From Rhizobium sp. Q54 (GTDB lineage Bacteria > Pseudomonadota > Alphaproteobacteria > UBA2966 > CAIVPW01): DNA of 64,000 nucleotides. The stretch spans positions 1 through 64,000 of the forward strand of contig CAMDCA010000002.1 in NCBI GenBank assembly GCA_945889645.1. The letters are read 5' to 3'. Position numbers and translations under genes: made by a program. The stretch's first letter is position 1, and each line of letters starts with the position of its first letter. Of this stretch, positions 11,095 through 19,232 are shown one piece after another. The notes below the pieces were generated by a model. That model was not told the DNA's origin. It did no database searches and saw nothing but the letters and a program-made list of their open reading frames with translations.

Positions 11095-11708
11095 GGGCGC
11101 GGATGGTTCCGGAACCGCCGCGCCAAGTCAAGGCCCGGCTGGCCCACACGAATACGTGTATCGCGCCCCGCGGCGCGCAGGCAGTGCCTGCCGCGCGGCA
11201 AATTCTCCCGCGCTCAGCTTTCGCTTCGGAGCCCGCCCTTGAGCGCCAGATTCCCGCCACCGCGGTGCGGCCTCGGCCTTGCACCCGCCCGCGCACGACC
11301 GTTGCGCGAGTTGCATTGGGATGCGCCTGCGCAGCGAAGGCTAAGCCCAGAGCCGAACATGCGGTGAGACAGCTTCGGCCATCACCGTCGAAAAGGGGTC
11401 GGGGGCGCCTGACCGTGCTGCACGACGACAGATCGGGCGACACCGCGCCCCTCCACGCCAGCGTCGCGCCGCGTTTGGACTCATCCCTGGACTTCGACAG
11501 CGGCCTGGATTTCCACCACCACAGCACGGGTCAAACCTGGGGTCTCTGGGCGTGACGACGGGAGGGAGAGCCTCCGGCTTCGGCTCCCCGCGCGCGGCTG
11601 CGCCGTCCACGATTCGCCTTTTTTCCAGGATGGAGTGCGGTTAGGCTCGGGTTCGCGGGGCCCCACCCGACCGGCCAGCTATTGAGGCGCGGGGTTTACA
11701 AGGTTGGA

Positions 11709-13217
11709 ATGAGCGAGCCGGAGAAGGCTGATGGCCGCCCCTTTGGTGCGCGGTTCATGAGCGGGTTGGCGCTCGCCTTGGCGCGCGCCGCCGCATTTGT
11801 TGCGACCAGCACGCTGAACGAGCCTCGGCAAGGCAACGGCCGTGCCTTGGTGTGGCTGATCGGCTCCCTAGCGGCGAACGTCGCCATCGCGCTGATCTAC
11901 TTCGCCGTCAGCGTTCCGGTCGCCAAACTCTTCGGCGCCTTTGGGGTCTTCCCGTCTCCGTTCTGGCCCGGCGCCGGCATTGCCCTGTTCTCCGTCGTGC
12001 TGATGGGTTGGACCGTCGCGCCGGGCATCTTCCTTGGCTCCGCGCTGGCGAACGGCGTGCTGTTCGCTGCGGCGCCCGAGTCGGCATTCCTGATCTCGAT
12101 CACCAACATGCTGGGGCCAGTGATCGGCGGTGTGCTGTTGCGCCGCACCATGCCGCCGCGGCAGCCCGTGTTCCTTCTCGCCGATGTAGCGCGTCTGAGC
12201 TTGTACGGCGTGCTGCTGCATTCGGCCATCACGGCGTTCGGCGGCACGGTCGCCGGGGTGGCATTCGACGGCGTCGGCGCGCGCTGGCCGGCGGTGTTCC
12301 TGGGCTGGATGCTGTCCGATTCGGCCGGGGTCATGATGATCGGCGTGCCCGCGTTGCTGTGGTGGATCGACCGGCGCGCCATCGAGCGCCGGCTGCTGCC
12401 GCAGATGGTGGGAATCTCACTCATAGCGCTTCTGCTGGGCTCCTCGCGCTTCCTGTTGCCGAGCGAGCTGGAGCCGCCGCTTGGCATCCCCGTCATGGTC
12501 GCGATGTGCATCAGCTGGGCCGTCGTGCGGTTCTATCCGCGCGACGCCATGACGCTGTTCGCGCTGGTGCTGTTCCTGCTCGTCGTCGGTACGGTCTTCG
12601 ATCCGGCTCCGCTGATCGACTACGCGGGCTCCAACGTCGTCGGCGCGGCAGGTCTCGCCATCATCTTCGGCATGTTCAACGTGCTGCTGATCGGCTCGAT
12701 CATGGAGGAACGCGCCCTCGCAGTGCGGCGCGTCTCCCAAGACATCGTTACCGGCCTACCCAACCGCGCCACATTCTTGTCGGAAGCGGCGCGCGAGCTG
12801 GGCCGCGCCCAGAACTACAACCGTCCTCTATCGGTGGTGACGTTCGACATCGACGGCTTCCGATCGGTCAACTCGCGGCACGGCAGCATCGTCGGAGACG
12901 CCGTGCTGAACGCGATCGGCGGGCACGCGCGCGCCTGGCTGCGGCCGCTCGACGTCCTGGCGCGCATCGGTGACGACGAATTCGCCATCATGATGATCGA
13001 GACTGATCAAAAGGGAGCAACGGCTCTCGCCGAACAGCTGCGCATCACCATCGCCAGCACGCCGATCGAGATCAACGGCGCCGTTGTAGAGGTGACGGTC
13101 AGCGTCGGAGTGACCGGCAGACGCTCGGGCGACACCATCGATTCGGTGCTCGACCGCGCCAACGCTTCGCGCCACGTCGCGCAGCAGGCTGGCCGCAACC
13201 GGGTCGCTGCCGCCTAG
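11709..13217 (+). CDS. Multi-pass membrane (MASE1-like) GGDEF-domain protein with GDDEF signature
   Basis: N-terminal hydrophobic segments (VFPSPFWPGAGIALFSVVL...), then DIVTGLPNRATFLSEA...VVTFDIDGFRSVN...RPLDVLARIGDDEFAIMMIE...SVGVTG...AGRNRVAAA. Confidence 0.88.
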   Translation: MSEPEKADGRPFGARFMSGLALALARAAAFVATSTLNEPRQGNGRALVWLIGSLAANVAIALIYFAVSVPVAKLFGAFGVFPSPFWPGAGIALFSVVLMGWTVAPGIFLGSALANGVLFAAAPESAFLISITNMLGPVIGGVLLRRTMPPRQPVFLLADVARLSLYGVLLHSAITAFGGTVAGVAFDGVGARWPAVFLGWMLSDSAGVMMIGVPALLWWIDRRAIERRLLPQMVGISLIALLLGSSRFLLPSELEPPLGIPVMVAMCISWAVVRFYPRDAMTLFALVLFLLVVGTVFDPAPLIDYAGSNVVGAAGLAIIFGMFNVLLIGSIMEERALAVRRVSQDIVTGLPNRATFLSEAARELGRAQNYNRPLSVVTFDIDGFRSVNSRHGSIVGDAVLNAIGGHARAWLRPLDVLARIGDDEFAIMMIETDQKGATALAEQLRITIASTPIEINGAVVEVTVSVGVTGRRSGDTIDSVLDRANASRHVAQQAGRNRVAAA

Positions 13218-17231: not shown

Positions 17232-17855
17232 ATGCTCGACGCCCTGATCGCCTGGTGCGCGACCTGGATCGTGCCCGCCATCGCCGCCGCCGGCTATCCC
17301 GGCGTCGTCGCGCTGATGGCGATCGAGTCGGCATGCATCCCGCTACCATCTGAAATCATCATGCCGTTCGCCGGCTACCTAGTGTCGACCGGCCGCTTCA
17401 CGCTGATCGGTGCTGCTACTGCCGGCGCATTGGGCTGCAATATCGGCTCCGCCCTCGCCTATTGGGTCGGAGCCCGCGGTGGCCGCCCAATGGTCGAAAA
17501 GTGGGGCCGCTACATCCTGCTCAGCCCGCACGACATGGCCCTGGCCGATCGTTTCTTCGCCCGCTGGGGTGGCCCGGCCGTGTTCATCGCGCGGCTGTTG
17601 CCAGTGGTGCGGACGTTCATCGCCCTGCTGGCCGGCATCGCCCGCATGCCGCAGGTACCGTTCCACCTCTACACGTTCGTCGGATCGTGGATCTGGTGCT
17701 ACGCGCTGGCATACATCGGCTACGCGCTGGGCGAGCGCTGGAACGCCAACTCAGGCTTCCGTGCCATCCTGCACCAGCTCGACTATCTCATCGTCGGCCT
17801 CGGCGTTGCGATCGTCGCCTGGTGGGTTTGGCGCCACCTGCGGCGCACGCGCTAG
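17232..17855 (+). CDS. DedA family membrane protein
   Basis: IESACIPLPSEIIMPFAGYL, GARGGRPMVEKWGRYILLSPHD, FIARLLPVVRTFIALLAGIARMP. Confidence 0.93.
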   Translation: MLDALIAWCATWIVPAIAAAGYPGVVALMAIESACIPLPSEIIMPFAGYLVSTGRFTLIGAATAGALGCNIGSALAYWVGARGGRPMVEKWGRYILLSPHDMALADRFFARWGGPAVFIARLLPVVRTFIALLAGIARMPQVPFHLYTFVGSWIWCYALAYIGYALGERWNANSGFRAILHQLDYLIVGLGVAIVAWWVWRHLRRTR

Positions 17856-17861
17856 CAGCGG

Positions 17862-18995
17862 CTAGGCCACCAGGTTGGTGGTCGCCTTCAAGCGGCGGGC
17901 GAGGATAGCAGCCAGATTCAGATTGATGCGCGCCAGCACCGCCGCATCGACACCCTTGGCCGCAAGGAACTGTTGCGGCCGGATGCGGATCATCTCGCCG
18001 TTGGACAGCGCCACGACGTCCGCCGTGCGCCCTTCACCCAACAACATGCTCATCTCGCCCAGGAGATCGCCGGGGCCCAACGTCGTGACGATGGTCTTGC
18101 GTCCCATCGGGCTGGTCTTCACCACGTGCACGAAGCCGGCCCGCAGCAAATAGACGTCGATGCCGCGCGCCGGCGCGTCGATGATCTGGTCGCCGGCATT
18201 GAACTCCACCCGCGCCGCATCCTCCAGAAATGTCTCGATGTCCGGGTTGCCGACACCCTTGAACAACGGCATCTCGCGCAGCGGCGGCGCGGTGTCCATG
18301 GTGTCGTGCGGATCGATCGGCGCGTCGGTGGCGGGAATGTCGGCCTCGACCGGGCCCTCGACCATTTCTCGGAAGAAACGGGCGGCGGCCGGGACATGCG
18401 CCTGTCCGCGCTGCAACAGCACCGGCAGCACGCGCGAGCGAATGCTGGCGAGGTAATCGAGGTCGTGCACGACCAGGCACATCGGCACACCAACTCCGCC
18501 GCGCGGATACAGGAAGTGCGGCGCGTGACAACGGAAGCCGAGCCGCTCGTAAAGTGGAACGGTTTCGGGGTCGCAGTCGATGAACACGAACCACGGCGCC
18601 GAGAACTTGGCCAGATAGTCGATGACCGCACCGATCAGTTCGGCAAACACCGCGCTCTTGCGGTGGGCGCGCGCCACGGCTGCTTTGCGCACAACGAACA
18701 CGTTTTGCTTGGAGAACGCCGCCGCCACCGGGCCGACCGCCAGAGCCTTGACCCGCACAGGATCGAGTTCGGCGCCACCCCACCAATCCACCGTGACGGT
18801 GCCAGCCGGCTGGTGGCCGTCGTACGCCACCAGCACCATGGCTTGGGCGTCTGCGGGTTCGGTCAGGCCGCGGCCAGCAGTGACCCCGGGAATGTCGTAG
18901 CCAAGGTCTCCGACCAGCACGCTATGGCGGAGATGGAAGGCATCCCGCCGCGATTCGTCCGTACGCGCAGGTTCGATTCGAAACGCGCCCGCCAT
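17862..18995 (-). CDS. GNAT-like (FeeM/autoinducer-synthase-like) domain fused to C-terminal cyclic-nucleotide-binding domain
   Basis: N-terminus RRDAFHLRHSVLVGDLGY ... VVRKAAVARAHRKSAVFAELIGAVIDYL ... FIDCDPETVPLYERLGF. C-terminus PLFKGVGNPDIETFLEDAARVEFNAGDQIIDAPARGIDVYLLRAGFVHVVKTSPMGRKTIVTTLGPGDLLGEMSMLLGEGRTADVVAL (cNMP fold). Confidence 0.82.
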   Translation of the reverse strand: MAGAFRIEPARTDESRRDAFHLRHSVLVGDLGYDIPGVTAGRGLTEPADAQAMVLVAYDGHQPAGTVTVDWWGGAELDPVRVKALAVGPVAAAFSKQNVFVVRKAAVARAHRKSAVFAELIGAVIDYLAKFSAPWFVFIDCDPETVPLYERLGFRCHAPHFLYPRGGVGVPMCLVVHDLDYLASIRSRVLPVLLQRGQAHVPAAARFFREMVEGPVEADIPATDAPIDPHDTMDTAPPLREMPLFKGVGNPDIETFLEDAARVEFNAGDQIIDAPARGIDVYLLRAGFVHVVKTSPMGRKTIVTTLGPGDLLGEMSMLLGEGRTADVVALSNGEMIRIRPQQFLAAKGVDAAVLARINLNLAAILARRLKATTNLVA

Positions 18996-19232
18996 GTTCC
19001 ATCCCCCTCGTGGCGCAAGCCTATCACGCTGCCGCAGAGGCGCGGCAGGGCTGGCCTTTCGCCCCGGCCTCGGGCCTGGGCGCCCTGCTTGGCTTCCGGC
19101 GCCTGCGCCGTAGCAGCCCTGCGACCCCGGCCATCGCCGAACACTACGCACTCCATCCCTACGGCGGGTCGGCGGAATCCCCGCCCCGGCGACGCATTGC
19201 CTTTCCGGGCCGTTGGACGCATGTAAGCGTCC

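Follow-up and report, generated by a model that had tools for sequence, protein, structure and literature searches.

A putative cyclic-nucleotide-gated N-acyltransferase of the OlsB/FeeM/LuxI lineage with a C-terminal CRP-like domain

Most of what is known of cAMP action in bacteria concerns transcription factors of the CRP type, along with a few gated enzymes (Pat, cNMP-GGDEF and cNMP-EAL proteins) and channels. Mycobacterial Pat (Rv0998/MSMEG_5458), a type III GNAT, carries a fused cAMP-binding domain and its activity is gated by cAMP (PMC5861322, PMC8556138); none of the types in the five-type scheme of GNATs has a C-terminal sensor (PMC8556138). Fused cNMP domains also gate the bacterial enzymes XC_0249 (cNMP-GGDEF; PMC3770947) and, reportedly, Bd1971 (cNMP-EAL; PMC6717892), while FeeM-type synthases use long-chain acyl-ACP as donor (PMC8762209). 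In the open-access literature that we searched, no paper pairs an OlsB/FeeM/LuxI-type domain with a C-terminal cyclic-nucleotide-binding domain (CNBD), and none describes the function of a GNAT-then-CNBD family. Judged by sequence, what appears new in the protein described here is the C-terminal cNMP sensor on a GNAT of the FeeM/OlsB/LuxI lineage, cAMP-responsive GNATs with an N-terminal sensor being known already.

The protein is encoded in a stretch of 64,000 nucleotides of the genome deposited as Rhizobium sp. Q54 (contig CAMDCA010000002.1), hereafter called the window. An earlier note on this DNA had delimited an ORF at 17862–18995 and described its product as a FeeM/autoinducer-synthase-like N-terminal GNAT followed by a C-terminal cNMP/CAP-like sensor, the reverse of the order found in mycobacterial Pat. 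The ORF is real and all the peptides quoted from it are found in a 377-residue protein; its coding strand, which had been left unstated, is the minus strand (18995→17862). Its features are the following:

17862..18995, minus strand: whole gene, 377 codons plus stop, with the ATG at 18995 (orthologs with identical start and end).
18438..18995, minus strand: N-terminal acyltransferase domain (GNAT; FeeM/OlsB/LuxI lineage), residues 1–186 (Pfam FeeM, OlsB/LuxI profile comparison, alignment column counts).
18288..18437, minus strand: linker, residues 187–236, with S187 and F208 invariant in the family (33-member alignment); the fastest-evolving part.
17865..18287, minus strand: CRP-like cyclic-nucleotide-binding domain, residues 237–377, with the C-helix at its end (Pfam cNMP_binding, alignment with E. 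coli CRP).
18024..18059, minus strand: phosphate-binding cassette G313-E314 ... R323-T324-A325 (G71, E72, R82 and S83 of CRP).
17877..17882, minus strand: T372-T373 in the C-helix (T127/S128 of CRP; S/T at each position in 27 of 31 family members).
18996..19012, minus strand: Shine-Dalgarno-like GAGGGGG 5' of the ATG (upstream sequences of the window gene and two orthologs).

Two orthologs (L031 and L032), 68–70% identical to the window protein, share its first and last residues and its location beside obgE; both come from lake metagenome genomes deposited under the same name, 'Rhizobium sp. Q54'. A longer ORF of 780 residues is an artefact, a read-through antisense to obgE, and the orthologs back the start at Met 18995. 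A purine-rich, Shine-Dalgarno-like stretch precedes the start codon in all three genes, and neither a sigma-70-like promoter nor a terminator was detected around the gene in the window. The acyltransferase and sensor domains are both under purifying selection, with a dN/dS of about 0.20–0.24 in each and a higher value in the linker (window protein versus the two orthologs). The shared ends of the orthologs, this constraint, the Shine-Dalgarno-like stretch and the existence of some 30 more distant proteins that share the two-domain order end to end indicate that the two-domain gene is more than a chance arrangement.

The fusion is thus real, as had been proposed, but it is not peculiar to the source genome. 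Full-length relatives, paralogs included, are found in its genus and family too, and the same order and length recur in 25 of 385 Alphaproteobacteria genomes (18 of 276 genera), a patchy distribution that spreads across many families of the class. In a phylum-wide sample, which includes same-class genomes and in which few candidates were scored per genome, the only match was in the source genome, which on that account is a weak negative; the plasmid and viral collections that we searched yielded no relatives of the fused protein, and the gene is absent beside obgE in three genomes compared (G003, G006 and G007). In the full-length tree, a single long branch with full support unites the window protein, the two orthologs and L112. 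When the N-terminal domains were analysed together with 22 unfused relatives, all the fused proteins fell on one side of a branch, with weak support (78/33); this best tree thus favors, albeit weakly, a single origin over a separate fusion event leading to the window clade. Three proteins of 468–483 residues (L124, L125 and L126) have a FeeM-like domain at their C-terminus, after about 250 residues of unknown type.

The assignment of the C-terminal half is borne out by Pfam, in which cNMP_binding (PF00027) matches residues 263–345 with 61.7 bits (cut-off 27.5), and the Pfam domain order is indeed the reverse of that of Pat. In an alignment with CRP of E. coli MG1655, residues G71, E72, R82, S83, T127 and S128, which we take to be the cAMP contacts (T127 and S128 contacting the base), correspond to G313, E314, R323, T324, T372 and T373, so that the window protein has compatible residues at all six positions compared. 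The cyclic-nucleotide phosphate cassette, which the earlier note had suggested looking for, is intact, with E314 and R323 in the places of E72 and R82. It is also kept across the family (E in 30/31 members, R in 30/31, S/T next to the R in 30/31), as are S/T at the two C-helix positions (27/31 each). The protein ends four residues after T373, directly past the C-helix, and no C-terminal HTH domain of the CRP/FNR type is present in it. Since the cGMP sensor XC_0249 instead uses N145/E146 for guanine (PMC3770947), the T-T pair leans, by analogy, towards cAMP rather than cGMP. The source genome encodes seven class III cyclase domains and several further cNMP proteins. Finally, L112 (6082–7773) is the closest relative outside the genus, its N-domain being 38% identical to that of the window protein. 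Of the cAMP contacts in its CNBD only one glycine is left, and yet it has retained its acyltransferase domain, a hint that selection acts on the enzyme.

In the N-terminal half, FeeM (PF21926) is the sole acyltransferase model of Pfam that scores above its own cut-off (30.9 bits against 27, residues 49–175; 33.0 bits with the N-domain alone), next to weak matches to ordinary Acetyltransf families. The N-domains of the family match either FeeM (16/32) or Acetyltransf_5 (16/32). Profile comparison of the N-domain gave OlsB at 98.9% (E 2e-17) and LuxI at 96.9% (E 2e-10); among the profiles tested, the acyltransferase half is thus nearest to OlsB, the ornithine-lipid N-acyltransferase, with LuxI second. 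These matches uphold the FeeM/autoinducer-synthase likeness seen in the earlier note. The family members nonetheless lie far below the cut-off of the NCBIfam OlsB model (NF052554, 350 bits), the best of them (L033) reaching 31.9 bits and the window protein having no match at E ≤ 0.01. The source genome contains a single FeeM-type domain, that of the window protein, and no OlsB-type Acetyltransf_5 match.

The label autoinducer-synthase-like, which the earlier note had also used, holds as far as remote homology is concerned. A cAMP-controlled synthase of the LuxI type, with an acyl-homoserine lactone as its product, would agree with that homology and with the presence of AHL synthases among the profile and fold matches, yet this identity is very improbable: besides the closer OlsB profile, Autoind_synth (PF00765) has no match in the window protein up to E 10, although it strongly matches five true LuxI proteins of the same class, and both the E-x-x-R motif and R68 are missing. 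We name the catalytic roles here (R23, D49, R68 and E-x-x-R) after those that we assume for EsaI-type enzymes. All of the 5 LuxI and 8 OlsB proteins that we examined have the E-x-x-R motif after the fourth strand, but the family lacks it throughout, with no acidic residue in column 101 of any of the 33 members; its counterpart in the window protein is V101-V-R-K104, V101 and K104 being those of the window clade. At position 68, R is found in 28 of 33 members and has been lost in the window clade (T68 in the window protein). Because the E is non-acidic in 33/33 members and R68 is lost in this clade, the chemistry of LuxI and OlsB is not transferable: clear as the GNAT lineage is, the catalytic details must differ from those of LuxI and OlsB.

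The same losses are what a pseudo-enzyme would display, i.e. a non-catalytic GNAT whose binding of acyl-ACP or of a partner is controlled by cAMP. We consider this quite improbable, given that the window protein keeps R23, E46, D49, Y149, R155 and D178, that four of these are nearly or fully invariant in the family (R23 in 32/32, D49 in 32/33, R155 and D178 each in 33/33), that dN/dS is equally low in the GNAT domain, and that it is the sensor which decays in L112.

A further possibility is a cAMP-gated GNAT that depends on acetyl-CoA and has proteins or a metabolite as its substrates, in other words a Pat with swapped domains rather than a long-chain acyltransferase. The weak Acetyltransf matches would fit it, as would a Y-E-x-x-G-F-R motif (from Y149) similar to that of ordinary GNATs and the fact that SACOL1063, YjcF and other acetyl-CoA GNATs head the matches of both the N-domain profile and the model. 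Acetyl-CoA GNATs possess, however, a CoA P-loop of the form R/Q-x-x-G-x-G/A (PMC8556138). This motif is not found in register in the family; the one match among 33 members is out of register, and the window protein has none. By analogy with OlsB, the missing in-register P-loop argues for a phosphopantetheine donor that lacks the CoA diphosphate. With FeeM alone above its cut-off among acyltransferase models, OlsB the closest profile tested and the Pat model confined to the CNBD, we regard the acetyl-CoA enzyme as unlikely.

Structure prediction and fold search, which had been suggested as a check, agreed with the fold and stopped short of the acyl pocket. AlphaFold was run on the whole protein and on the N-domain with a three-sequence alignment only, and the resulting pLDDT values (37.8 and 44.5, respectively) are too low to see a pocket. 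The order of strands and helices in the low-confidence model fits a GNAT followed by a CNBD. A PDB fold search with the N-domain model retrieved GNATs at TM < 0.5; acetyl-CoA enzymes came out best, and FeeM (2g0b) and an AHL synthase, BjaI, were also among the matches. The models support a GNAT-like topology only, and acyl-ACP and acetyl-CoA enzymes are not separable by them.

The gene neighbourhoods differ between loci. In the window, the gene is divergent from obgE, in a rplU-rpmA-obgE-proB-proA-nadD neighbourhood, and faces a convergent gene for a VTT/DedA-family membrane protein (17232–17855, plus strand) that has no counterpart at L031 and L032. With obgE divergent, the VTT/DedA gene missing at the ortholog loci and the gene itself patchy beside obgE, there is no conserved operon at this locus. 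Elsewhere in the window, a 511-residue protein (11682–13217, plus strand) resembles, by eye, a MASE1-type membrane sensor with a GGDEF domain. In at least 10 loci, nrdJ, the gene for class II ribonucleotide reductase, is immediately upstream of the fused gene and aspS is downstream of it; L040, L094, L097, L103, L104, L107 and L108 are among them. We considered this linkage as a functional clue and discarded it: it is recurrent, but the flanking genes are unrelated housekeeping genes, and we read the site as one of stable insertion. In a subgroup comprising L017, L096 and L098, a gene for a heme-oxygenase-like, iron-containing redox enzyme (Haem_oxygenas_2, PF14518) lies directly upstream. Two paralog loci, L035 (6091–8998) and L036 (5841–8726), hold a compact cluster between ubiB and pntA that consists of a CNBD-only gene, a FeeM-CNBD paralog and an MFS transporter gene. 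The paralog overlaps the transporter gene by 4 bp in both; it also overlaps the CNBD-only gene by 4 bp in L035, whereas a 13-bp gap lies between these two in L036. The transporter overlap at these two loci is in keeping with a small-molecule product. No common pathway emerges across the neighbourhoods compared.

The reading that we favor, with a probability of about 0.5, is that the protein is a cyclic-nucleotide-gated N-acyltransferase of the OlsB/FeeM/LuxI lineage. Against it speak the non-acidic E column and the loss of R68, the motif from Y149 with its likeness to ordinary GNATs, the acetyl-CoA GNATs at the head of the fold matches, the low confidence of the models and the decayed sensor of L112. 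It is supported by FeeM and cNMP matches that exceed the curated cut-offs, the OlsB/LuxI profile match, the compatible CRP positions, the occurrence of the family in 25/385 genomes, the dN/dS of about 0.2 in both domains and the seven cyclase domains; the two domains and their order, their conservation in the family, the cAMP pocket at the sequence level, the constraint on both domains and the cyclases of the genome are established. In such an enzyme, (i) the CRP-like domain would bind cAMP, or possibly cGMP; (ii) the protein would probably dimerize along the C-helix as CRP does; (iii) binding of the cyclic nucleotide would reposition the linker and switch the N-terminal GNAT, both the gating and its sign being presumptive; (iv) the acyl donor would, by analogy with OlsB, FeeM and LuxI, most likely be acyl-ACP (or a longer acyl-CoA); (v) the acceptor would be the amine of a small molecule. 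Of the earlier suggestion of a second-messenger-gated acyltransferase making a signal or lipid, the domains and pocket residues stand; that it makes a signal is not assertable, OlsB being the nearer profile and the E-x-x-R being absent from the family and R68 from the window clade. We advance only tentatively, and as rather doubtful, the view that these proteins are second-messenger-gated lipid or signal synthases, in which cAMP at a CRP-type C-terminal dimer would directly switch acyl transfer from acyl-ACP to a small amine on or off, so that the cAMP pool would govern the output of an exported acylated molecule with no transcriptional step. If the favored reading is true, cAMP would be tied directly to a membrane-lipid or signal output, and the family, whose function is undescribed in the open-access literature searched, offers a concrete target for assays.

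How does this protein compare with known systems? OlsB (L-ornithine N-alpha-acyltransferase; Acetyltransf_5/NF052554) shares its GNAT lineage with the window protein across some 140 residues, and both have a degenerate P-loop region, the first R and the D-x-x-D region; OlsB, however, has no C-terminal CNBD, and its E-L-G-R is missing in the window protein. FeeM, the N-acyl amino acid synthase whose Pfam cut-off (PF21926) the window protein passes and whose structure 2g0b is among the fold matches, lacks a sensor domain. Pat has its sensor at the N-terminus and its GNAT at the C-terminus, whereas the window protein has them reversed; its GNAT is of a different lineage, and the CNBD is the one part of the window protein to which the Pat model aligns. 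The C-helix of E. coli CRP ends in R-R-L-Q-V-T-S and that of the window protein in R-R-L-K-A-T-T, but CRP carries an HTH DNA-binding domain, whereas the window protein has an enzyme domain in front and no HTH. Finally, the effector domains of XC_0249 and Bd1971 make or break c-di-GMP and yield no acyl product, unlike what we propose for the window protein.
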